A DNA stretch of 64,000 bases from an uncultured Opitutia bacterium (GTDB lineage Bacteria; Verrucomicrobiota; Verrucomicrobiia; Opitutales; Opitutaceae). This document shows, piece after piece, positions 8,370 through 19,656 of the stretch (positions within the stretch are counted from its first letter, which is position 1; each line of letters starts with the position of its first letter). The position numbers and the translations under genes were made by a program. Where the stretch lies: NCBI GenBank assembly GCA_903827245.1, contig CAIKHO010000021.1, forward strand, positions 1 through 64,000, read 5' to 3'. Under the pieces are notes generated by a model. The model saw only the letters and a list, made by a program, of their open reading frames with translations. It was not told the origin of the DNA and did not search any database.

Positions 8370-8747
8370 TCAAAACGTTGCGCCGTGATATCGTGGCGCG
8401 ACACGGATCGGGCTTCGTACTCCCAGATGACATGAATTTGCCTCTGCGTCGCACGAGTCAGAAACGGGAGCAACGGTCCTGTCCTCGGCCTTGTCCGATA
8501 GTTTCACCGCCCGGGGCATGGTCACCGGTGTGCCGTTGAAATAGTCGATCTGCTTCGCAATGAGCAGGGCATGGCTGAGTTCTTCGGCGGCGTGGCGCTC
8601 CAGCTCGCCCGCGATGTGCTGGAACTTGGCACCCTTCATCGTCTGGCTGTAAACGATGTAACCGATGATGGCCTGATACTCCCTCGCCAGGTCTTGGTTC
8701 AGGAGCTTGATCATGTGCTTGCGGGTGATGGGGGCGGGATTTTTCAT
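8370..8747 (-). CDS. Truncated ferritin-like protein
   Basis: Residues 1-80 match the first half of a bacterioferritin/ferritin-like four-helix bundle: IKLLNQDLAREYQAIIGYIVYS, then a conserved AGELERHAAEELSHALLIAKQIDYFNG with the E..H iron ligands, then VKLSDKAED. The expected helices 3 and 4, with the second E..H ligand set, are absent. After about residue 80 the frame continues in unrelated sequence (SCDAEANSCHLG...) to a stop at 125 residues. The product would therefore lack half of its iron site and is probably non-functional or a pseudogene. Its start has no clear Shine-Dalgarno sequence. Confidence 0.7.
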   Translation of the reverse strand: MKNPAPITRKHMIKLLNQDLAREYQAIIGYIVYSQTMKGAKFQHIAGELERHAAEELSHALLIAKQIDYFNGTPVTMPRAVKLSDKAEDRTVAPVSDSCDAEANSCHLGVRSPIRVAPRYHGATF

Positions 8748-8838
8748 AATTACTGTGACCGACAGCCGTCATGCCACCGGGTTCGGTTAATAAGTCGCGC
8801 GCCCTCCCCCGCCCGTGCTCCCGGCCCTCTCCCCGGCT

Positions 8839-8865
8839 GTAGTGTCAACTAATAGCTGACACTAC
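8839..8865. repeat. Hairpin with CTAAT loop (copy 1)
   Basis: GTAGTGTCA and TGACACTAC form perfect 9-bp arms. The core TGTCAACTAATAGCTGACA closely matches TGTCACCTAATGGGTGACA at 44491-44509. There is no T-run. It lies about 90 bases upstream of the truncated ferritin start. Confidence 0.6.
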
Positions 8866-8931
8866 GTTTCGGGCCGTCCGGTGGTGGTTGATCGGGACCG
8901 TCCGCTTTGATTCCCTTTTTCGCGGGCGGAG

Positions 8932-8979
8932 TGTAGCCGGCCTCGCTGAGGCCGGGCGGGGTCAGCGACCCCGGCTACA
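8932..8979. repeat. Intergenic inverted repeat TGTAGCCGG...CCGGCTACA
   Basis: The outer arms TGTAGCCGG / CCGGCTACA enclose two smaller hairpins (GCCTCGCTGAGGC and GGGGTCAGCGACCCC). It has no T-run and no coding capacity. It lies between the ferritin remnant and the esterase gene. Confidence 0.65.
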
Positions 8980-9035
8980 AGAAAACTTGCCACGACGCTC
9001 TCGCGCGCGGGGAGCGGCTTTCCCGTTACTCCCGC

Positions 9036-10118
9036 CTACTTCTTGTTTTTCGCGAAGGCGGCGAGGTCCCGCGCGGCCTTGGTCTCGAAGCCGGGCTTGC
9101 CCAGGAATCCGAGGTCGCGGAACCAGTCGATATAGCGGTCCTGCCAGGTGCCGAACGGGATCCCGCGGCGGTCCATCAGGCCGTCGGCGTGCACGCCGTT
9201 GCCGTAGATGTGCATCTCGAGGTTCGGCACCCCGGCCTTCAGCATTGCGGCAAAATAAGTGTCGGCCCAGACGGCATGCTGGCGATCGCCGGAGCCGGCA
9301 CAGACGATGAAGGTCGGCGGGGCGTCGGCGGGAATTTTCGTCGCCGCATCGCGCGTGAACGGCGTGGGGCCCGGATAGATCAGCCCGACAAAGTCCGGTC
9401 GCGAAGAAACCGGCGCGAGTGGGTCGCCCGGAGCCTGGTTCTTGCGGTTGAAATCGTCGTAGAACACCGCGGTAGAGGCCGCGAGCTCGGCCCCGGCGGA
9501 AAAGCCGACGATCCCGATCTTCGCCGGGTCGATCTTCCACTCCGCCGCGTGCGCGCGCACCAGCCGGATGGCCTGGAGCGCATCGGTCACCTCGTCGGTC
9601 AGCGGATCGTAGCCGTCGCTTTTCAGTCGGTTGCGGAGGATGACCGTGTTGACGCCGTAGTTGTAGAACCAGCCCACAAAATCGGCGCCCTCCGTGCCGA
9701 CATTCAGGGTGTTGTGCCCTCCGCCCGCGGCGAGAATGACGGCCGTGCCGGTATTGACCGAGGCCTGCGTGAAATGCACCTCGATGGACGGGTTGTGGAT
9801 GTTGACGATGCTCTGGATCCGCCCCGGCACGTCGCGAGCCATGTTGTAATGCTCCGCCTCGCGGATCCGCTCGTGCTTCAGGTAGGGCGAATCCGGCGGG
9901 TAGAGCGGGATCACGATGCCGCCCGGCAAGATCGGCTGCGGGGCATAGGGACCATCGGTCGCCGGCCCCGGCGACGGCACACCGAGCGGCGCGTAAGCAG
10001 CCGCGGCCGGAGGCGACGGATTCTGCGCCCGGGCGGCAGGCGCCAGCAAGGCCGACAAGAGCAGCGGCCCGAGCGCCGCGCCGATCCGATTTCTCTGCAC
10101 CGGGGTGAACAACTTCAT
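9036..10118 (-). CDS. Secreted alpha/beta-hydrolase (carbohydrate-esterase-like)
   Basis: A 360-residue protein with a signal peptide (IGAALGPLLLSALLAPAARA, cleavage near residue 31) and a Pro/Ala-rich linker. The catalytic domain shows the oxyanion strand TAVILAAGGGHN, the nucleophile elbow GFSAGAE, an acid region around ICAGSGDRQHAVWAD (written VCAGSGDRQH in the translation) and a C-terminal His in GNGVHADG. This is the layout of xylan- or feruloyl-esterase-like members of the esterase/lipase superfamily. It probably removes acyl groups from polysaccharide in the periplasm or outside; the substrate is inferred only from nearby pectin and glycan genes. It stands alone, flanked by repeats. 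Confidence 0.8.
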   Translation of the reverse strand: MKLFTPVQRNRIGAALGPLLLSALLAPAARAQNPSPPAAAAYAPLGVPSPGPATDGPYAPQPILPGGIVIPLYPPDSPYLKHERIREAEHYNMARDVPGRIQSIVNIHNPSIEVHFTQASVNTGTAVILAAGGGHNTLNVGTEGADFVGWFYNYGVNTVILRNRLKSDGYDPLTDEVTDALQAIRLVRAHAAEWKIDPAKIGIVGFSAGAELAASTAVFYDDFNRKNQAPGDPLAPVSSRPDFVGLIYPGPTPFTRDAATKIPADAPPTFIVCAGSGDRQHAVWADTYFAAMLKAGVPNLEMHIYGNGVHADGLMDRRGIPFGTWQDRYIDWFRDLGFLGKPGFETKAARDLAAFAKNKK

Positions 10119-10284
10119 GGGGTTCGAAGGCCTTCAATCCAGCGGCCCTGCCGCTGAGGCGCAAGCCGCCAGCGTTACGCACCGGATGAAGGGCCCAGTT
10201 CTCCGGTCTCTATCTCTGCCTTCAGTCGACTGTTTTTTGAAAGATTGACCACAAAAGCTGCGTTTCATCAGGAGCCAGATGTTT

Positions 10285-10426
10285 TTCGAACACCCTCTTC
10301 CGTCTCTCGGGTCGTCTCCTGTAAAGCCTCCGGATCCGATCCGTTGCACAGGAGGAATGCCGAGGTCGGTCCGAGAGTTGATTCAAACGGCTCTCTTCCG
10401 TCCCCCCGGATCCCCTCCTGTAAAAT
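10285..10426 (+). repeat. Family 2 repeat, left flank of the GxxExxY gene
   Basis: Two direct sub-repeats (ACCCTCTTCCGTC...CTCCTGTAAA and GGCTCTCTTCCGTC...CTCCTGTAAAA) are separated by the conserved core CCGGATCCGATCCGT and an inverted ACAGGAGGAATGCCGAGG. The left ACAGGAGG can pair with the right CCTCCTGT. Nearly the same arrangement occurs at 13275-13420, with related units at 10860-10935 and (reverse) 17811-17890. Confidence 0.8.
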
Positions 10427-10444
10427 CCCGCTCGCATCCATCAC

Positions 10445-10846
10445 ATGCACCCACTGTTTGATAAAGCCGACAAACTGACCGGACAGATCATCGCTGCCGC
10501 CATCGAGGTCCATAAGGACAAAGGCCCTGGACTGGTTGAATCCATCTATGAATGGTGCCTGCTCTGCGAATTGGACCTGCGCCAGCTATCACACGAGGTG
10601 CAGCGCGTAGTCCCGATCCGCTACAAGAAATTTCACCGGGAGGATCTGCTGCGCTTCGATCTATTGGTGGAAGGCTGTGTCCTGATCGAAGGCAAGGCAG
10701 TTGAACGCATCCTGCCGATTCACCAGGCACAACTGCTGAGCTACATGAAGCTCCTCGATGTGCCCGTTGGTCTTCTGATAAACTTCAATGTGGCCAGACT
10801 CACCGATGGTGTCTCCCGGCTCGTCCTTCCGGGCGCTGGTATTTAA
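10445..10846 (+). CDS. GxxExxY family protein (PD-(D/E)XK nuclease-like)
   Basis: A 133-residue protein matching the GxxExxY family from end to end: the naming motif GLVESIY (residues 29-35), YKKFHREDLLRFDLLVEG, IEGKAVE, HQAQLLSYMKLL and GLLINFNV. The Asp of RFDLLV and the E-x-K of IEGKA form a PD-(D/E)XK-type active site pattern, so a nuclease fold is likely. Cellular function is unknown for the family. The gene begins 19 bases after one copy of a palindromic repeat and ends 13 bases before another copy in the same orientation. This suggests that gene and repeat form one unit (inference). Confidence 0.88.
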   Translation: MHPLFDKADKLTGQIIAAAIEVHKDKGPGLVESIYEWCLLCELDLRQLSHEVQRVVPIRYKKFHREDLLRFDLLVEGCVLIEGKAVERILPIHQAQLLSYMKLLDVPVGLLINFNVARLTDGVSRLVLPGAGI

Positions 10847-10859
10847 AATTAATCCATTC

Positions 10860-10935
10860 TTACAGGAGGAAGACCTAGGCCGATCAGTGGACTGGTTCGA
10901 ATACCCTCTTCTGTTACTTGGATTTCCTCCTGTAA
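10860..10935 (+). repeat. Family 2 repeat, right flank of the GxxExxY gene
   Basis: A single 76-bp unit bounded by TTACAGGAGGAA and TTTCCTCCTGTAA, which are inverted repeats. The middle has TCGAATACCCTCTTC, as in the other copies. It has the same orientation as the copy at 10285-10426. Confidence 0.8.
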
Positions 10936-11042
10936 GATTTCTGGCTTCAAATTTATTGCCGTGAAACGCTCGTGTGAAGCCTAGGACTCCGACTTGGAGA
11001 ACGCCTCATCACCAGCTCAATTCCAGATACCGGCCGCTGCCC

Positions 11043-11975
11043 TTACGGCTTAGTGAGCGCCGAGGCGACGCTCGGCGTGGCTGGCGATTCCGAAACCGTT
11101 TCGGGCGATCTGATCGCTATCTTGGGCGCCCATTTCAGCCACTCCTTGTCCGGCTCCGACGTCAGCTGGAAAACGCCCCCGTCCGGGGCGGGCGGTGCGA
11201 GGGGCTCGGTGTCGGGGGTGGCGAAGGCCACGCCCCCGGTGACCAGCGATTCGAGCGACGTGTTCTTGAGCTCGGCCCCCAACAGGCCGACCTTGAAGGA
11301 AAATCCGCCCGCGTTCCAAAACCGGGTGCTCGTCCGCACTAGGTCGACATAAGGGGCGGCCACGTGGATGCGGACCAGCACCGCCGTGGCGTCGTCGGCC
11401 AGCCGGTTGGTGTCCACTTCGCCCACCTTGACCTCGCGATAAAAAACCGGAGCGCCGGTCGTGAGCGAGCCGAGCCGGTCGCCCTGCAGAATGAAGTTCC
11501 GGCCCTTGTCGGAGTTCTCGGGCGGCGGGGTTTTGTCCAGGCCGGTAAACTGCTTTGCGGGCGGACCCTTGCCGGGGTGCACGTTGAGGCGCGCGCCCGT
11601 GAGGAGGGTGTCGAGCCCGCGCACGCCCGAGAAGCCGATCTCGGGATGCACGATCCAGAATTGGCCGCCACCGGCGGCGAGCGCCGCGGCGCCCTTGTCG
11701 ATGACCACCCGCACGCGCACACGGTTCAAATCCGGATTCAGTTCCACGGCCTTGACCAGACCGACCGCCACCCCTTTGTACTCGAGCACGGTCTTGCCGG
11801 CCTCGACGCCGGAGCCGTTGGCGAACTCGATCGTTATCACCGGGCCGTGGTCGTACAGTTCGCGGAAGATCATCCAGGCGCCAACCGCCGCCGCGATCAA
11901 CGGCACGATCCAGACCAGCTGGAGCCGGGGCAAGCGGGAGCTGCGGGAAATCCTCGGCGTCGCCGGAGAGTTCAT
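11043..11975 (-). CDS. MCE/MlaD-domain protein, PqiB-like
   Basis: A 310-residue protein from the ATG at 11975. It has one N-terminal transmembrane helix (LVWIVPLIAAAVGAWMIF) and two MCE (mammalian cell entry) domains: about 42-95 (ITIEFANGSGVEAGKTVLEYKGV) and about 175-240 (GSLTTGAPVFYREVKVGEV). E. coli PqiB has three MCE domains and about 545 residues, so this is a short form. PqiB-type proteins form hexameric tubes that carry lipid between the membranes. Its ATG overlaps the stop of the upstream pqiA-like gene (ATGA), indicating translational coupling. Confidence 0.85.
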   Translation of the reverse strand: MNSPATPRISRSSRLPRLQLVWIVPLIAAAVGAWMIFRELYDHGPVITIEFANGSGVEAGKTVLEYKGVAVGLVKAVELNPDLNRVRVRVVIDKGAAALAAGGGQFWIVHPEIGFSGVRGLDTLLTGARLNVHPGKGPPAKQFTGLDKTPPPENSDKGRNFILQGDRLGSLTTGAPVFYREVKVGEVDTNRLADDATAVLVRIHVAAPYVDLVRTSTRFWNAGGFSFKVGLLGAELKNTSLESLVTGGVAFATPDTEPLAPPAPDGGVFQLTSEPDKEWLKWAPKIAIRSPETVSESPATPSVASALTKP

Positions 11976-12511
11976 GAGGCGGTGGACGTTGAGGTCATCG
12001 GCGCCTGATCGCGCCAGAGCACGCGGGGGTCGAACGCCTGGGTCGCGAGCACGGTGAGCACCACGGCGATCGCAAAGGCGATGATCCCGCTGCGGGGTTC
12101 CACCGTCGAAAGGGCGCCGAACTGCACCAGCCCGGAGAGAAAGCCGACGAGGAAGACATCGAGCATCGACCAGCGCCCGATGAAATCCAGGGCGGCATAG
12201 AGCCGCGTCAACCTCCGGACATCGTTGCTGGGGCCCCGGTGCGCTGAAAGGATCAGCCAGCCCAGACCCGCCAGCTTGAGCACCGGGATGAGAATACTGG
12301 CGGTGAACACGATGACGGCGATCACCCACAGCCCCTGACGCCAGAGTTCAACGATGCCGGAGAAGATGGTGTCCGTTCGGTTCAGTCCGGAAATCTGCGT
12401 GTTCAGGATCGGGAGCAGATTGGCAGGGACCAGCATCATGGCGGCGGCCAGCGCCAGCGCGGCGGCGTTGGCCGGATTTTCGGAACGGAGCCGCGGCAGG
12501 CGTCGCTTCAT
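11972..12511 (-). CDS. PqiA-like membrane protein (second copy)
   Basis: A 179-residue paraquat-inducible protein A family member with four predicted helices: about 17-35, 58-80, 98-118 and 138-160. It has the family's NLLPILNTQISGLNRTDTIFSGIVELW segment and SMLDVFLVGFLSGLVQFG. It corresponds to the second half of E. coli PqiA. It overlaps both neighbours by 4 bases (ATGA junctions at 12508-12511 and 11972-11975), so the three genes form one coupled operon for lipid transport across the envelope. Confidence 0.87.
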   Translation of the reverse strand: MKRRLPRLRSENPANAAALALAAAMMLVPANLLPILNTQISGLNRTDTIFSGIVELWRQGLWVIAVIVFTASILIPVLKLAGLGWLILSAHRGPSNDVRRLTRLYAALDFIGRWSMLDVFLVGFLSGLVQFGALSTVEPRSGIIAFAIAVVLTVLATQAFDPRVLWRDQAPMTSTSTAS

Positions 12512-13122
12512 GACGGCGGCGAGGCATCGCCCCGGACGGTGGATTGGAATTCAAAGCTGCGCCACGCCAGCAGGAGCGCGAACGACATCGCGCCGTAACA
12601 CCAGAAGCCCGGCCCGATCGCGACATGGACCAGTTTGCCCAATTTCATGAGGGCGACGAGCACGGCCAGCACCTGCACTTCCGGCATCGCCCAATACCCG
12701 AGGGCGTGGGCGGCGCGCGACAGCAGATCCACCTGCACCGGCGGCCAGCCGAGACGCGCCGGCACCAGCAGGCCGGCCAGCACGATGAGCATGGCGATCG
12801 GCACGAGCGTGCCGCAGAGCAGCACCCAGATTGCCAGCAGGTGCATGCCATTGTCCCGGAAACCATTCACGCCCGTGAAAAGCAGGCCCACCCGTTCATG
12901 GCCCAGTTTTCCGGCGGTGATAAACGGCAGGAGCGCCGCGGGCAGGGCGAGCATCAGGCCGGTGATCGTGAAAGCGAGGGCCGCATCGGCCCCCAAGCGC
13001 GAGCCCTGCGCCAGCACCGTATCGCAGCGGACGCAGAGCGCCCTTTCACCGGGCGCGAGGGGAACCGCCCGGTGCTCATGACCGCACAGGCGGCAGGTCA
13101 GGTTTTGAGGGTGGGCGGACAT
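12508..13122 (-). CDS. PqiA-like membrane protein with zinc ribbon (first copy)
   Basis: A 204-residue protein. The N-terminal zinc-ribbon pattern CRLCGHEH...CVRCDTVL (residues 10-40) is followed by four transmembrane helices, with ALPAALLPFITAGKLG and YWAMPEVQVLAVLVALMKLG typical of PqiA. It equals the first half of E. coli PqiA, so here the single PqiA is encoded as two genes. It is first in the operon. The promoter region upstream (13123-13274) shows no obvious operator. Confidence 0.87.
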   Translation of the reverse strand: MSAHPQNLTCRLCGHEHRAVPLAPGERALCVRCDTVLAQGSRLGADAALAFTITGLMLALPAALLPFITAGKLGHERVGLLFTGVNGFRDNGMHLLAIWVLLCGTLVPIAMLIVLAGLLVPARLGWPPVQVDLLSRAAHALGYWAMPEVQVLAVLVALMKLGKLVHVAIGPGFWCYGAMSFALLLAWRSFEFQSTVRGDASPPS

Positions 13123-13274
13123 TCAGGCGGGGAAATGAATTTGGAGCCGGGATGAGGCCATGGATGCAATTCGCGGATTTGCAGAAGACCGCGAACGAAC
13201 GACCCACAGTACAGCGGTGGGTTCCCGGCGGGCCGGCCAAACCGGGGGCAAAGACCTGGCACCCAGATTGGATG

Positions 13275-13420
13275 TTCGATCTAGCACCCTCTTCCTCCCT
13301 CGGATCGTCTCCTGTAAAGCTTCCGGATCCGATCCGTTGCACAGGAGGAATACCGAGGTCGAACCGAGGATTGGTTTGAATACCCTCTTCCTTCCCTCGG
13401 ATTGCCTCCTGTAAAAATTT
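13275..13420 (+). repeat. Family 2 repeat (copy without a gene)
   Basis: Shares nearly the full length of the 10285-10426 copy: CACCCTCTTCC, CGTCTCCTGTAAAG, TTCCGGATCCGATCCGTTGC, ACAGGAGGAATACCGAGG, then GAATACCCTCTTCC and GCCTCCTGTAAAA. No GxxExxY gene is present here. The rest of the 13123-13551 gap shows nothing else I can support. Confidence 0.8.
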
Positions 13421-13551
13421 GGTTCGATCGTTTTTAAAGTCGACTGCGCAGGGGCGGCGCCTGTCGCCGTCCATGGGCGTCCGCAAGGGACGCCCTGCAA
13501 GAACTCCAAGATGCATCTGGATTCCTAGCCGCGCCCGGAATCACATGGGGC

Positions 13552-16500
13552 GTGTCCGGACCGCCGACAGATTCTTCCTTTCCCTTCCGTATCGACTTCC
13601 CGCCGGCGCTGCCGATCAGCGCGCGGGCGGAGGAAATTGTCGCGGCCATCCAGGCGCATCCAGTCGTCATTCTCGCGGGCGAGACCGGCTCCGGCAAAAC
13701 CACCCAGATCCCGAAGATGTGCCTTGCCGCCGGCCGCGGCACGCGCGGCCGCATCGCCTGCACCCAGCCGCGCCGCGTGGCCGCGCTGTCCATCTCCCGC
13801 CGCGTGGCCGAGGAGCTCGGCGTCGCCTGGGGCCGCGAGGTCGGCTGCAAGATCCGGTTCAACGACCAGACCACTCCGGCCACGGTCATCAAGTTTCTCA
13901 CCGACGGCATGCTGCTCGCCGAGGTGCAGGGTGATCCGCTTCTGCGCGAGTACGACACCATCATCATCGACGAGGCGCACGAGCGCTCGCTCAACATCGA
14001 CTTCCTCCTCGGGCACCTGCGCACGCTGCGGTACAAGCGGCCCGAGCTGAAGATCATTGTCACGTCCGCGACGATCGACACCGCCGCGTTCAGCAAGGCG
14101 TTCGACGACGCACCGGTCATCACCGTCGAGGGCCGCATGTACCCCGTCGAGCTGATCTACGCCCCACTGGATTCCTTCGGCCGCGACTGGAATGAAGATC
14201 CCGACCGGGCCGGCGCAGACGCGTCCGCCGAAGCCTCGGCGAAGGCGGAGGCCCTGCACTACATCGACGGGGCGGTCGCGGCGGTGGAACGCATCGTGGG
14301 CGACAGCACCGCCGGCGACATGCTGGTGTTCATGCCGAGCGAGCGCGATATCCGCGAAACCTCCGAGCTGCTCGAAGGCCGGATCAAGTCCGCCGGCGGC
14401 GCCGCCCGGGCCGGCCTCGAGGTCATCCCGCTGTTCGGCCGCCTGACGAACGCCGAGCAGCAGCGCGTGTTCGCCCCGTCACAGCGCAGGAAAATCGTCA
14501 TCGCCACCAACATCGCGGAAACGTCGCTGACCATCCCCGGCATCCGGTTCGTCGTGGACACCGGCCTCGCGCGCCTGAGCCGCTATTCGCCGCAGGCGCG
14601 CACGCGCCGGCTGCCGATCGAGCCCGTGGCGCAATCAAGCGCCGACCAGCGCAAGGGCCGCTGCGGGCGCGTGGCCGACGGCGTGTGCATCCGGCTTTAT
14701 TCCGAGCAGGATTTCCTCGAGCGCCCGCGCTTCACGCAGCCGGAAATCCAGCGGGCCAATCTCGCCGATGTGATCCTGCGGATGAAAGCGTTCGGCTTGG
14801 GCGACATTGAGCGTTTCCCGTTCCTGAACATGCCCGCGACAAAATCGATCCGCGCGGGTTATGCGCTGCTGGAGGAATTGGGGGCGGTCGCGCCGGCGGA
14901 TGCGCCGCCGGCGCGAGGGGCGAGGGCGAGGGACGAGGGGCCAGAGCCTCAGACCAATCCGACCAGCGGGGGCACGGCGCTTGCGTTGGTCGAGCTGACT
15001 CCACTCGGGCGCGAGTTGGCGCGGCTGCCGGTCGATCCGACGGTGGGGCGCATGATCCTGCAGGCGCGGAGCGAGAAGGCGCTGCGCGAGGTGCTCATCA
15101 TCGCGGCCGGCCTCAGCATCCAGGATCCACGCGAGCGGCCGCTCGAGAAGCAGCAGCAGGCGGACGCGGCCCACCGCCGGTTCGCCCATCCCGACTCGGA
15201 TTTCCTCACCCTGCTCAACCTCTGGGATTCAGCTCACGGCGAGTTCGAGACGATGTCGCAGTCCCGGCTGCGCCGGTTCTGTCGCGACCATTTCCTCAGC
15301 TACACGCGGCTGCGCGAGTGGAGGGACATCCACTCCCAGCTGCTCGACACGCTGGAAAAGCGCGACGACTTCAAATTCTCCTCGGCCTTTGACGGCCTGA
15401 AAGCCGACGACCCGCGGGCCACGGCCTTCGGCACGCCGCCGTACCGGGCGATCCACCGCAGCATCCTCGCCGGCCTGCTCGGGAACATCGCGCGGCTGGA
15501 CGAGGACAACGGCGGCTACAAGGCGACGCACGACCGGCGGGTGAGCCTGTTTCCCGGCTCGGCGCTGTTTGTGCGCGAGGATCCCCGGAAGAAAAACCCG
15601 GCGGCGCGCACCGGAGCCAAACCCAAGACTCCGCGCTGGATCATCGCCGCCGAGATCATGGAGACCTCGCGGATCTACGCCCGCACCTGCGCCCGGCTCG
15701 ATCCGGCGTGGGCGCTCGAGCTCGGCGCCCATCTCGTGCGTGTGGCGCACAGCGAACCGTTCTGGAACGCGGACCAGGGCCGCGTCCTGGTGAAGCAGCG
15801 CACGCGGCTGTACGGGCTCGAGCTGGACAGTCGGGCGGTTGGCTACGGCCGGATTGATCCGCCGCATGCGACGGAGATCTTCATCCGCGAAGGCCTGGTG
15901 AACGACACGATCACGTGGCCCTTCGACTTCCTCGCCCACAACCGCAAGGTGCGCGAGCAGGTGGAGGCCATCCTCACGCGCACGCGCGACAGCGGCTACC
16001 TCAACCTCGACGAGGCGGCTTACCGGTTTTACGCGGCGCGGCTGGCGCCGGAGCGGCCGGGGGGCGAGGGCGAGGGGCGAGGGACGGCAGTCGGCGGACG
16101 GACGACAGAGGGCGGAGGACAGGGAATCTCGGCGGTGGCGGAGCTGGTTGACCTGATGCGTGAGCGGCGCGGGGCGGACCCGCGGTTTCTGATGATGACG
16201 GTGGACGACCTGCGGGATCCGGCCACGCCCGAGCAGGACACCACGGCGTTTCCCGAGGTGCTGCCGTTGCAAAACAACGCACTGCCGCTGGCCTATGCGT
16301 ACAAGCCGGGACAGTCGGACGATGGAGTCACGCTCGAGGTCGGCGTGCGCGAGGCGGAGACCCTCAACGCCGCGGCGCTCGACTGGGCGGTGCCCGGTCA
16401 TCTCGAGGCGAAAGTGGAGCACTACCTGCGGACGCTGCCGAAGGAATTGCGGCGCGCCTTCGTGCCGCTGGGCGACACGGCGCGCAGCGTGGCGGTGCAG

Positions 16501-17808
16501 ATCGCCCGGCGCGACCGCCTGACCGCCCGCCGCGAGACCCTGATCGAGGCGCTGGCTGCGCAGCTGCGCGAAGGATTTAAAATCGCCGTGGACCCGGCGC
16601 TTTGGGCGGAAAAGCCGCCGCCCGACCACCTGCGCGTGCGGGTGCGCGTGGTGGACGATGAAGGCCGCGAGCTATGCGCGAGCCGGGAACTGGCCGAGAT
16701 CCAGGCGGCGCTGCACGCGCATGGCCGCGCCGCCAGCGCGGCCGTGGCCCACGAGGACCCGGAGGCCTGGCGCCGGGCGCGCACGCAATGGGAAAGATCG
16801 GACCAGACGGCATGGACGTTCGGCGACATCCCGGCACGCGTGCAGGTGGGCGACCAGGCCGGCGTGCCGGTGTTCGCCTTCCCCGGACTCCGCGCCGGCG
16901 TGGAGGGTGTCGCGCTCCGTTTGTTCAAGACCCCGGAGGAGGCGCGGGACGCAACCCGGCGCGGCCTGGCCGCGCTGCTCGAGCTGCAACTGCGGCATGA
17001 CCTCGGCTGGACGCAGCGCGACTTGGGCAAGCTGCGCGAGCTGGGCGCCCTCACGGCCACCATTGCGCCCCTGGCGGCGCTGCAGGAGGACGCTTTCCAG
17101 TCGGTGCGACGCTGGGCCTGCGATCCGGGACGCGTCCCCGGCCCGCCGGAATCCGGCGCCGACCGCGGACTCAACGCCGCCCGTTTCGCCGCCGCGCTCG
17201 AGCGCGCGAAAACGGACCTGCGCGGCCTGGTGCCGCGGCTGGTCGACCTGCTGCGCGAAATCCTTGAGCTGCGGCAGGCGCTGCTGGTCCATGCCCAGCC
17301 CTACCCCGGCCTCGAGCAGGAGGTCGCCTCGCTGCTCAAGGCCGATTTCCTGCGGACCACGCCGTACGGACAACTCGGGCAGTTCCCGCGCTACCTGAAA
17401 GGCATGAAGCTCCGCGCGGACCGCTGGCGGCAGAATCCCGCGAAGGACACCGAACGCGCGCGCCAGATCGCGCCCTATCTGGCCGCGCTCACGCAGCGGA
17501 GCGAGCCAGCCGGGACGTTTCGCTGGCTGGTGGAGGAATTCCGCATCAGTCTCTTTGCGCAGGAGCTCGGCACGGCCGAGCCGGTGTCGGTCCAGAAGCT
17601 GGACCGTGCGCTGGCGGAGCCGGCTGGACGATTGGCGCCGACCTTGACGACCACGGAGTCTTCCCCGCCCGCAGGCATGGCCAGTCCAAAAAAGCCCGGG
17701 GAAAGCAAACCGGAGCCGGCGGCGTCCGGCCGGCTGCTGGCCGAGCCGGCAAAAAAATCCAGGCCGCTGAAAAACCTGGGCGGACTGGACAATCTGTTCA
17801 GGAAGTGA
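13552..17808 (+). CDS. hrpA: ATP-dependent RNA helicase HrpA (DEAH box)
   Basis: 1418 residues, close to the usual 1300-residue HrpA. The start is the GTG at 13552. Motifs in order: I GETGSGKTTQ (about 43-52), Ia TQPRRVAALS, II DEAH within IIIDEAHERS (about 140), III SATID, V TNIAETSLTIPG, VI QRKGRCGR. Then come the winged-helix, ratchet and OB-type domains, and a long DUF3418-like C-terminal region with FPEVLPLQNNALPLAYAYKPG and RYLKGMKLR. It would remodel RNA or mRNA-ribosome complexes in the cytoplasm. Two low-complexity inserts (about residues 448-472 and 833-860) are repeat-like DNA within the frame. Confidence 0.95.
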   Translation: MSGPPTDSSFPFRIDFPPALPISARAEEIVAAIQAHPVVILAGETGSGKTTQIPKMCLAAGRGTRGRIACTQPRRVAALSISRRVAEELGVAWGREVGCKIRFNDQTTPATVIKFLTDGMLLAEVQGDPLLREYDTIIIDEAHERSLNIDFLLGHLRTLRYKRPELKIIVTSATIDTAAFSKAFDDAPVITVEGRMYPVELIYAPLDSFGRDWNEDPDRAGADASAEASAKAEALHYIDGAVAAVERIVGDSTAGDMLVFMPSERDIRETSELLEGRIKSAGGAARAGLEVIPLFGRLTNAEQQRVFAPSQRRKIVIATNIAETSLTIPGIRFVVDTGLARLSRYSPQARTRRLPIEPVAQSSADQRKGRCGRVADGVCIRLYSEQDFLERPRFTQPEIQRANLADVILRMKAFGLGDIERFPFLNMPATKSIRAGYALLEELGAVAPADAPPARGARARDEGPEPQTNPTSGGTALALVELTPLGRELARLPVDPTVGRMILQARSEKALREVLIIAAGLSIQDPRERPLEKQQQADAAHRRFAHPDSDFLTLLNLWDSAHGEFETMSQSRLRRFCRDHFLSYTRLREWRDIHSQLLDTLEKRDDFKFSSAFDGLKADDPRATAFGTPPYRAIHRSILAGLLGNIARLDEDNGGYKATHDRRVSLFPGSALFVREDPRKKNPAARTGAKPKTPRWIIAAEIMETSRIYARTCARLDPAWALELGAHLVRVAHSEPFWNADQGRVLVKQRTRLYGLELDSRAVGYGRIDPPHATEIFIREGLVNDTITWPFDFLAHNRKVREQVEAILTRTRDSGYLNLDEAAYRFYAARLAPERPGGEGEGRGTAVGGRTTEGGGQGISAVAELVDLMRERRGADPRFLMMTVDDLRDPATPEQDTTAFPEVLPLQNNALPLAYAYKPGQSDDGVTLEVGVREAETLNAAALDWAVPGHLEAKVEHYLRTLPKELRRAFVPLGDTARSVAVQIARRDRLTARRETLIEALAAQLREGFKIAVDPALWAEKPPPDHLRVRVRVVDDEGRELCASRELAEIQAALHAHGRAASAAVAHEDPEAWRRARTQWERSDQTAWTFGDIPARVQVGDQAGVPVFAFPGLRAGVEGVALRLFKTPEEARDATRRGLAALLELQLRHDLGWTQRDLGKLRELGALTATIAPLAALQEDAFQSVRRWACDPGRVPGPPESGADRGLNAARFAAALERAKTDLRGLVPRLVDLLREILELRQALLVHAQPYPGLEQEVASLLKADFLRTTPYGQLGQFPRYLKGMKLRADRWRQNPAKDTERARQIAPYLAALTQRSEPAGTFRWLVEEFRISLFAQELGTAEPVSVQKLDRALAEPAGRLAPTLTTTESSPPAGMASPKKPGESKPEPAASGRLLAEPAKKSRPLKNLGGLDNLFRK

Positions 17809-17810
17809 GC

Positions 17811-17890
17811 GCCTCGGATCGGCCTCGGCTTGCCTCCTATGCCACGGATCGGATCCGGAAATTTTCAGGAGACGATCCAAGAAGGGGGCA
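17811..17890 (-). repeat. Family 2 repeat, reverse partial copy
   Basis: Read on the minus strand it gives GATCGTCTCCTGAAAATTT, CCGGATCCGATCCGTGGC, AAGGAGG-like ATAGGAGGCAAGCCGAGG and GATCCGAGGC. This matches the core and inverted arm of the 10285 and 13275 copies. It begins directly after the hrpA stop codon. Confidence 0.7.
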
Positions 17891-17931
17891 GAGGGCGGGC
17901 AAAAGACCCCTCCCTGCCATTCATCCCGCTC

Positions 17932-19656
17932 TCAGCGGCTTTGTCCGCGGCCGATAAGCTTGCGCCGGCGCAGCGCGCCGGTGGCGAGCAGCGCCGTGCC
18001 AGCCAGCAGCAGGCCCCAGGTCGAGGGCTCCGGCACGGGCGTGAAATTCAGGAAGAGATTATTGCCCACCTGCGAGACGAAAAAACTGCCGGTGCCGAGG
18101 CTGTTCGCGAAGCCGGGGTTGCTTCCAAAAGAAGCCGTTGTGAGCAAAAAGGCGTTGGAATTAAACCCCGTGATTCCTCCCGTCGTGTTGGCAATCATCC
18201 ACGAATAGGACTGGGCCGGATTGAAATTGACGACCGACCCGGCAAGGTTCCCGGCCGTCACGGAATTAATGGAGATCCCAAATTGGGCCGAGTTACTGGC
18301 AGTGATGTTCAGCGCGCCGGAGATGTTCAGCAGACTCCAGTTGGCGCCCGCCGTACCAGTGGCATTGTTGATGAAAAAATAGAGCAGCCCGTTGCCCGCA
18401 AACGTGGCGCTGGGCGCCGAGAACGTACCCGGGGTGAAGGTGCTAGCACCGCTATTGAACATACCGGGAAAGAGCTTTCCGCCGCCGCCGATGGTCAGCG
18501 CCCCGGTGATGCTGTTATTGGCGATGAGCGCGCCGCCGCTGCCGATGGTCGACGGAGTGGAACTGGTGATGTTGACCGGTCCGGAACCGAGGGCCGAACC
18601 CGTGCTGTTGGTGAGGATCACCGTCCCACTGTAAATCGTCGTGCCCCCCGAATAAGTGTTCGCGTTTGGCAGGGTGATCATGCCACCCGTCAGCACCGAA
18701 ACCGCACCCGTGCCCGAGATCGCGTTGGCGAAGGCAACGTTGGCCGAACCGTCCTCATTCAGGACGAGCGTTCCATTGTCGACGATCGCACCGGCGATGG
18801 ACGAATTGCTCGTCACACCGTCACCGATCTGCAGCGTCGCACCGCTGTTGATCATCGATCCGCCCCCATAGGTGTCGGTGCCGGTGAAGATCGAGCTGCC
18901 GGTGCCCCCGATGGTAAGGCTGCCGGTGCTGCCCGAGATGACACCCTGGAACGTGTTGGCTACGGCATTGTTGATGATCAGGTTCACGCTCGAGCCCAGG
19001 CTGACGTTGCCCGCAAAGCCGCTGTTGCCGATCAGGCCGGCAATCGTCTCGTTGTAGTTTACGTCCAGCGTCGTCCCGGTCGAGAGCTTCATGGTGCTGT
19101 TCGGCGAATAGGCGCCGGCGTTGGCATCGACGATGACCGCGCCGCTCGGCCCGATGAACGTGTTGCCGGAATAGGTCTTGTTGGTGCCCGTGAACGTCAG
19201 GGTCGAGAGCTGGGTGAGCCGCACATTGCCGGTGCCGGAAATCGCGTTGGCCAGCGAGCTGTTGACCGTGAGGTTGATATTGAAGTTGCCGTTGTCGACG
19301 ATCGCGCCCGAAACCGAGCCCGAGGTGGTCGTGCTCGCCGAGCCGAACTGCAACGTGCCGCTGCTGCCGATGGTAATCCCGCCGGTGCCGGTGCCGGATC
19401 CGGTCGTGTTCGTAAGAATCAGCAAACCGCCATTGACGGTCGTGCCGCCGGTGTAGGTATTGGCCCCCGCCAGGATCTCGTTGAAGGTGGTTGCGCCGGA
19501 CTTGTTCAGCGCACCGGCACCGCTGATCACACCAGTATAGAGATCCGCCGACACCGACGCTGAGCTTATGGTCAGGGTTGCCCCGCTTCCGATCGCCACG
19601 CCGACCGAGCTGGTACCCGTCAGGCCGGCGATGCTCTCGTTGCTGTTAACATTCAC
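17932..19656 (-). CDS. Beta-strand-repeat PEP-CTERM protein, 3' part (after frameshift)
   Basis: A 574-residue frame continuing the same repeat protein as 19653-21902 but in another frame. Repeats of the autotransporter-associated beta-strand type run to about residue 370 (units such as NKTYSGNTFIGPSGAVI, NTYTGGTTVNGG, GAIVDNGNFN). A non-repetitive region follows. The end is a textbook PEP-CTERM sorting tag: VPEPSTWGLLLAGTALL plus a basic RRRK tail. Such proteins are processed by exosortase, which is not in this window. In-frame coding sense extends upstream of the first start codon to about 19725, so this is not an independent gene. Confidence 0.8.
   Translation of the reverse strand: MNVNSNESIAGLTGTSSVGVAIGSGATLTISSASVSADLYTGVISGAGALNKSGATTFNEILAGANTYTGGTTVNGGLLILTNTTGSGTGTGGITIGSSGTLQFGSASTTTSGSVSGAIVDNGNFNINLTVNSSLANAISGTGNVRLTQLSTLTFTGTNKTYSGNTFIGPSGAVIVDANAGAYSPNSTMKLSTGTTLDVNYNETIAGLIGNSGFAGNVSLGSSVNLIINNAVANTFQGVISGSTGSLTIGGTGSSIFTGTDTYGGGSMINSGATLQIGDGVTSNSSIAGAIVDNGTLVLNEDGSANVAFANAISGTGAVSVLTGGMITLPNANTYSGGTTIYSGTVILTNSTGSALGSGPVNITSSTPSTIGSGGALIANNSITGALTIGGGGKLFPGMFNSGASTFTPGTFSAPSATFAGNGLLYFFINNATGTAGANWSLLNISGALNITASNSAQFGISINSVTAGNLAGSVVNFNPAQSYSWMIANTTGGITGFNSNAFLLTTASFGSNPGFANSLGTGSFFVSQVGNNLFLNFTPVPEPSTWGLLLAGTALLATGALRRRKLIGRGQSR

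Follow-up and report, generated by a model that had tools for sequence, protein, structure and literature searches.

In the REP/REPIN-RAYT systems, or REPtrons, multicopy intergenic palindromes bracket a single enzyme gene, groups of the enzyme are reported to have co-evolved with their cognate palindromes, gene-less copies are taken to be non-autonomous, and expression of the enzyme by read-through has been proposed (PMC2817692, PMC3116915, PMC8266576, PMC3733652). The last of these also describes TIRtrons, which are RAYT-like genes in terminal inverted repeats, some of which also form a repeat family. Another small ORF, S23, lies in the loop of terminal inverted repeats that form the intervening sequences (IVSs) of 23S rRNA (PMC4990558). 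In Coxiella, the IVS ends in inverted repeats of 28 bp, RNase III cuts it in vitro, and tandem heptamers lie 5′ of its S23 ORF; more than 25 years after the discovery of rRNA IVSs, this source still calls their function and origin unclear and their origin and mobility unresolved (PMC4990558).

The locus described here, from a 64,000-nt stretch of Opitutaceae DNA (the window), approaches one known kind of system, palindromic repeats with a dedicated enzyme, but with a different enzyme. As in REPtrons, palindromes that are multicopy and intergenic bracket one gene; unlike in REPtrons, that gene encodes a GxxExxY protein of the PD-(D/E)XK type and not an HUH tyrosine transposase, the arms consist of tandem units of about 9 nt, several arm dialects occur per genome, and the three window hairpins lack GTAG. 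Because the enzyme differs, we do not place the unit among the REP-RAYT systems. With TIRtrons and rRNA IVSs it shares a gene enclosed by inverted repeats, which in the window takes the form of a hairpin, the gene and a second hairpin. It is set apart from TIRtrons by its enzyme superfamily and by arms that are internally periodic, and from rRNA IVSs by its position between protein genes, its nuclease-family gene, its 9-nt units and its multicopy gene-less hairpins. The window element itself lies between two protein ORFs instead of in a 23S rRNA helix, and an Rfam search of positions 8500-19000 gave no rRNA match. As regards a classical insertion sequence, the protein encoded between the hairpins matches PDDEXK_3/GxxExxY only; it is no transposase, and it is not S23 either. 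The explanation that we favor, and to which we give about an even chance, is that of a nuclease element bordered by hairpins and accompanied by solo hairpins as its non-autonomous derivatives. It would work in the manner of REP-RAYT but with an unrelated enzyme, and the protein would recognize its cognate arms and mobilize them. In the literature searched, outside of which most subscription journals fall, no source joined GxxExxY with repeats, and the passages that use the word GxxExxY are not about repeats.

The original prediction was that a 133-residue GxxExxY protein with a D...ExK pattern is bracketed by copies of one repeat, 19 bases before and 13 bases after the gene. The ORF was borne out, with both profiles above their cut-offs, and a hairpin does stand on each side (Table 1). 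The 3′ gap was correct, but the 5′ gap is 21 nt, and the upstream copy begins with CACAGGAGG and not with TTACAGGAGG. The three complete hairpins tested, the two beside the gene and the one at 13339-13416, fold 3.7 to 4.6 standard deviations below dinucleotide shuffles. With at most one mismatch, TTACAGGAGG occurs eight times in the window against 1.07 expected, a count reached in 0 of 100 shuffles. Two gene-less repeats, thought to be identical to those at the gene, were found at 13275-13420 and 17811-17890, although they are only similar: positions 13296-13376 are 89% identical to 10303-10383, and 13341-13419 are 80% identical to 10862-10940, while the copy at 17811-17890 is diverged (83% identity over 54 nt) and in inverted orientation.

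Table 1. Positions of the nuclease gene, its hairpins and the gene-less repeat copies in the window
Feature	Position	Strand	Basis or detail
Lone right arm CCCTCTTCC...TCTCCTGTAA, 5′ of upstream hairpin	about 10293..10325		Sequence comparison, folding
Complete upstream hairpin CACAGGAGG...CCTCCTGTAA, 77 nt, 21 nt 5′ of start codon	10347..10423		Folding z -4.1
GxxExxY protein gene, 133 aa, PD-(D/E)XK nuclease family, PF13366/TIGR04256	10445..10846	+	ORF list, profile matches, AlphaFold2 pLDDT 96.3
G-x-x-E-x-x-Y signature, codons 29-35, GLVESIY	10529..10549	+	Alignment
PD-(D/E)XK catalytic pattern, codons 72-84, D72 ... E82-x-K84	10658..10696	+	Alignment
Complete downstream hairpin TTACAGGAGG...CCTCCTGTAA, 76 nt, 13 nt 3′ of stop codon	10860..10935		Folding z -3.7
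Gene-less copy of upstream composite: lone right arm, linker, complete hairpin	about 13288..13414		Hairpin 13339-13416, z -4.6
Diverged gene-less copy, inverted orientation, directly 3′ of ORF 13552-17808	17812..17882		Sequence comparison

The upstream repeat is a composite of a lone right arm, a linker of about 20 nt and the complete hairpin. Because the lone right arm precedes the complete hairpin, inward and outward hairpins can alternate here, the lone arm and the left arm of the hairpin possibly forming an outward-facing hairpin round the linker. Such alternation of inward and outward hairpins resembles BIMEs, and it could indicate that the repeats are a REP/BIME family moved by an unseen RAYT, an HUH tyrosine transposase, with the GxxExxY gene as a bystander. 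The Verrucomicrobium O. terrae is reported to be rich in GTAG REPs (PMC3733652). We consider this explanation extremely unlikely, however, as neither a GTAG nor a CGTC tag was seen by eye in the three window hairpins, and arms of this build accompany GxxExxY and S23 genes well beyond the window genome.

The window protein is predicted to be a nuclease. It matched PF13366 (PDDEXK_3) with 122.2 bits and TIGR04256 with 127.8 bits, for curated cut-offs of 22 and 35, respectively. When it was aligned with the proteins of 38 of 80 homologous loci (39 sequences in total), residues G29, E32, Y35, D72, E82, K84, and Y100 were invariant and Q96 was kept in 90% or more. No PDB chain matched the protein by sequence at an E value of 1, but its AlphaFold2 model was confident (pTM 0.88). 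The closest fold was that of 4ic1 (SSO0001), which we take to be a Cas4 (Foldseek E value 3.3e-3; Z 8.5 over 98 residues, rmsd 3.2), and lambda exonuclease was the next Foldseek match (E value 0.04); nothing was found at an E value of 0.001 or below, and structural neighbors ranked after the first, with Z below 7, perhaps share merely a common arrangement. The model thus presents a PD-(D/E)XK fold that is closest to the Cas4/lambda exonuclease branch, whose members act on single-stranded DNA and on DNA ends. Cas4 and lambda exonuclease likewise share the D...ExK and Q...Y residues. Cas4 proteins have four conserved Fe-S cysteines, whereas the GxxExxY protein is a minimal 133-aa domain in which this set is absent and only C38 is conserved at 90% or more. 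The gene is under purifying selection, with a median pN/pS of 0.22 (23 sequences, 253 pairs) and a dN/dS of 0.08 among the 88 pairs with usable dS, the latter a rough value because the synonymous distances are large (the smallest being 1.2). A stop or frameshift fell within the matched span at 6 of the 80 loci.

These 80 loci were the best of 100 found in a scan of GTDB species genomes. Inverted arms were scored by local alignment of the 150 nt upstream of each gene with the reverse complement of the 150 nt downstream, for which 79 loci were long enough (L096 was too short). A lack of flanking repeats at most GxxExxY genes, which would have counted against the original prediction, was not seen: 49 of the 79 loci scored at least 14 and 58 at least 12, whereas 14 was reached in 1 of 395 intervals drawn at random from these loci and in 1 of 167 other ORFs. 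The order is that of a purine-rich arm, the gene, and the complementary arm. Some of the 30 loci below 14 are decayed and others have no visible arms. Going by record titles, scores of at least 14 were reached in Verrucomicrobiota, Planctomycetota, Bacteroidota, Lentisphaerota, Acidobacteriota, and Pseudomonadota. The same was seen closer to home, in the bacterial family of the window, where 84 of 100 genomes have at least one GxxExxY gene: among the 30 best-scoring TIGR04256 loci, which are not a random draw, 20 reached at least 13, versus 5 of 240 control intervals, and several of those below 13 have arms that look decayed by eye.

What these loci have in common is not CCTCCTGTAA itself but inverted arms of tandem units of about 9 nt in many dialects, among them ACAGGAGGNAACGGAGG, ACAGAAGGNAACAAAGG, ACCACAGAGGNCACAGAGG, CCGCGGATNACGCGGAT, and ACCACTAAT. 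In 71 arms of 24 nt or more, self-match was 0.48 at a lag of 9 and 0.27-0.36 at every other lag between 4 and 13. In the window genome, the second GxxExxY gene (L001:1350-1960) also has paired arms (score 22), in the CGCAGAGG dialect, and these lie farther from the gene than is usual. At L058, tandem copies of a whole hairpin with its spacer were noticed by eye in the 190 bases 3′ of the GxxExxY gene (from 2377), and they look like a head-to-tail amplification of the unit. Generality across the family formed no part of the original prediction, and neither did the S23 parallel described below. Short tandem units scattered between genes are also the hallmark of the cyanobacterial STRR heptamer repeats. 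The TAACTGA heptamers of Beggiatoaceae are similarly tandem and intergenic, but they are direct repeats, with one inverted case of 170, and the main text of that study does not mention S23, four helix, or GxxExxY (PMC4679880).

The position of the arms allows for another reading, in which they are operators or mRNA stability elements through which the GxxExxY gene regulates itself and mobility is irrelevant. In 86 elements, the median distance between the inner arm end and the gene is 14.5 nt on the start-codon side, with a lower quartile of 7, and 6 nt on the stop-codon side, and arms so rich in purines could act as ribosome binding sites. An operator would not be expected to have a second arm past the stop codon, however, and hairpins of the same dialect are multicopy without the gene, with gene-less hairpins of such build also standing behind unrelated genes. 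Consequently, we regard autoregulation as very unlikely to account for the arms.

Of 121 proteins, 86 have an arm score of at least 12, and 83 were kept after near-copies were removed; L139 had been left out beforehand, as had rows that contained stops or in which the protein or the flanks were short. Among the 83, the more alike two proteins are, the more alike are their arms (Mantel rho 0.60; none of 2,000 permutations was as high, the largest being 0.16). Paralogues of the same genome, at a mean identity of 38%, have an arm similarity of 0.24 (24 pairs from three genomes), whereas 693 pairs of proteins that share at least 60% identity, presumably for the most part from different genomes, have one of 0.52, which indicates that dialect is a property of the element and not of the genome. 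Arms and gene, therefore, descend together. That dialect follows protein subfamily suggests that each protein recognizes its cognate arms, and it lends indirect backing to the earlier idea that the nuclease acts on its own repeat, but the match could reflect joint descent instead of recognition. The two arms of an element may also be kept alike. In 27 elements of the ACAGRAG dialect, the arms of one element are 88.7% alike versus 74.6% when swapped between elements, a level that none of 5,000 swaps reached for the former, and at several columns the two arms have changed in concert. This comparison, which left out gapped arms, is supportive rather than proof, and the contrast between own and swapped arms is inflated because arms were chosen by their own pairing.

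Copies of the repeat without the gene are numerous. The window genome has 43 exact copies of TTACAGGAGG, against 12 of a reversed control, but only two GxxExxY genes, and 3 of the 43 copies sit in the two hairpins beside the window gene. We read 30 of the motif places in this genome; by eye, 13 were in complete hairpins (both ends of some hairpins, and the hairpins of the window gene, are included in this number) and 17 appeared to be single arms instead of complete inward hairpins, which speaks against the explanation that we favor. Ten of these 17 have their best inverted partner 35-57 nt upstream, giving an outward-facing hairpin. We had considered that single arms might be the borders of other cargo genes, but this was rejected, since the partner in those 10 is not beyond a gene. 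Outward-facing hairpins of the form CTCCTGT ... ACAGGAGG, with a short loop, recur in the window genome (L026, L031, L036, L038, L039, L040) and resemble the composites at 10.3 and 13.3 kb. The same genome has an MISL RNA (RF03079, 518 bits; L019:1887-2647) that is separated by about 300 nt from a solo hairpin.

Across 100 genomes of the bacterial family, 22 carry the window subfamily, at an identity of 55% or above and in one case as a partial gene at the end of a contig, and their median count of TTACAGGAGG was 7.5. For the 62 genomes in which all GxxExxY genes are of other kinds it was 2, and for the 16 without any it was 1. The first group differs from the other two with p values of 3e-5 and 6e-5, uncorrected for kinship, and the latter two differ with a p value of 0.063, while the reversed control pattern was equal in all three groups (means of 8.4, 8.5, and 8.2). 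Against this, five genomes (G049, G085, G019, G069, and G035) have 52, 26, 18, 14, and 11 copies, respectively, without a gene of the subfamily; either these are orphan repeat populations or the gene was missed in the assembly. A second dialect is that of the CGCGGAT type. In at least 8 of 10 genomes with that gene (at least 80% identical), the exact pattern adjoins the gene, and one genome has no pattern; away from its own gene, the dialect shows a weak excess (median 1.5 versus 1), with a two-sided p of 0.056 when set against the other GxxExxY genomes and a one-sided p of 0.011 when set against all.

Because motif copies far outnumber genes, and because genomes exist that have the TTACAGGAGG dialect without a subfamily gene, one might suppose that these are ordinary interspersed hairpins of independent origin and that the gene was trapped between two of them by recombination, serving, for example, in defense or repair. 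In line with this, another hairpin dialect, discussed below, is linked to no gene here. Chance trapping would not, however, arm most of one family on both sides, nor would it tie dialect to protein subfamily. It had been asked whether the repeats are equally common at random genes, and the answer is twofold: gene-less copies do lie near many genes, but arms on both sides, which are frequent at GxxExxY and S23 genes, occurred at just the one other ORF of 167 mentioned above. No family among the PADLOC anti-phage models matched the window protein at an E value of 0.1, and tblastn found GxxExxY homologues in 8 of 72,556 plasmid records and 0 of 50,697 phage records. Independent origin is thus decidedly improbable in our judgment.

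The proposal of a mobile unit drew some backing from differences at a single site between related species and from the mixing of phyla on the protein tree. The spacer 5′ of a HIT-family gene was read in 50 genomes (L181-L210, L277-L296), and the end of the same upstream gene was found in 40 of them, synteny resting on a short motif of that end. A GxxExxY-loaded unit occupies the site in 4 of the 40, with a spacer of about 490 nt. Gene-less hairpins scoring at least 12, in several dialects, occupy it in 13 (spacers of 82-170 nt, one of 365), a census that stands without a matched control of other intergenic sites. Three have a 21-nt spacer without a hairpin, and the remaining 20 have weaker or no arms. 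An arm often begins within a few bases of the upstream stop codon. Four species of genus g29 show four dialects at this site, one of them weak. Of the four species of genus g16, two have a loaded site, another carries a hairpin that is different and weaker, and the last is masked in part. The site therefore shows turnover at the scale of the genus. With so many unrelated dialects in related species, it also looks like a hot spot. One dialect found here, GGAAATCAGGAA / GGAACTCAGGAAC (L185, L193, L203, L296), is linked to no gene and possibly belongs to another protein family.

The protein tree has 16 changes of phylum label where 7 would suffice (75 rows, few columns), a count to which mis-binned contigs and paralogues may contribute. 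No recent gene copies were found in the gene-rich genomes G026 and G058: the identity of paralogues there does not exceed 61% and 69%, which would make any movement of the gene-loaded form old or rare. No target-site duplication was found, and for the window element a search with the ORF at 11046-11978 in 57 relatives, 15 of them matching, yielded no empty allele. Besides the window's own, 8 of the 15 matching loci were read; their neighbors differ, and the window's hydrolase was not found there. Among the sequences analyzed, no excision, insertion, or cleavage event was seen.

If the element is mobile as we favor, autonomy would rest with its gene-loaded form, from which the solo hairpins would derive as non-autonomous units, in the way that REPs relate to RAYT/TnpAREP. 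The nuclease, being like Cas4 and lambda exonuclease in fold, may recognize the hairpin of its own dialect in DNA, either single-stranded at replication forks or extruded, and may then cut or resect it, with repair copying the element or keeping its arms alike. Expression could come by read-through, as most elements have a co-directional gene upstream. With a home-made choice of ORFs, the upstream neighbor was co-directional in 107 of 121 loci and the downstream neighbor in 90 of 124. After shared sites were joined, the upstream figure was 73 of 84, compared with 124 of 173 ordinary ORF pairs (p 0.007), and the downstream figure, 58 of 87, was no different from that baseline.

This excess of co-directional neighbors would also suit an element that works in RNA, like the 23S rRNA IVSs, in which the arms would pair in the transcript, host RNase III would excise or cut the hairpin, and the ORF would either be carried along as a passenger or serve in RNA processing. 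The Coxiella IVS, with its inverted repeats, RNase III cutting, and heptamers, offers a precedent, and S23 genes, which are what rRNA IVSs encode, are likewise framed by an arm on either side here. We prefer the DNA level to the RNA level because the fold neighbors of the GxxExxY protein are DNA nucleases and because arm mismatches show no sense-strand G.U bias, with 52 sense-type versus 78 antisense-type transitions (p 0.028 in the opposite direction). The window copy, moreover, is antisense to both of its neighbors, the minus-strand ORFs 9036-10118 and 11043-12329, which argues against an RNA-level reading, and in the stretches compared with Rfam, none of its families matched the arms. An RNA-level element is therefore unlikely, in our estimation, although it keeps an appreciable chance. 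GxxExxY genes are widespread and unexplained, and the link between subfamily and dialect makes both the function of the protein and the origin of the interspersed hairpins testable in a single binding or cleavage assay. If recognition is real, the natural dialects would supply small nucleases that come already paired with their hairpin substrates.

The S23 genes extend the comparison to a second protein. In the same bacterial family, 17 of the 30 best-scoring loci of S23 four-helix-bundle genes (TIGR02436), again not a random draw, had an arm score of at least 13, versus 3 of 240 intervals. Here the arm period is 7, with self-match of 0.73 at lag 7 and 0.78 at lag 14, compared with 0.20-0.31 at the other lags from 5 to 13 (measured on those arms of 20 nt or more, among 19). 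It is conceivable, although we would put the chance somewhat below even, that GxxExxY elements with 9-nt arms and S23 elements with 7-nt arms are branches of one transposase-free mobile class in which the protein reads the arms unit by unit, that many of the interspersed hairpins of Verrucomicrobiota, Planctomycetota, Bacteroidota, and other phyla are gene-less derivatives of this class, and that rRNA IVSs are members that landed in rRNA. The parallel would then offer a source for rRNA intervening sequences. The S23 units with period-7 arms are also intergenic here, and in Opitutaceae (L151-L180) their arm units include AGTAGCG, GGAGTCA, GTTGAGA, and AATTAAG.
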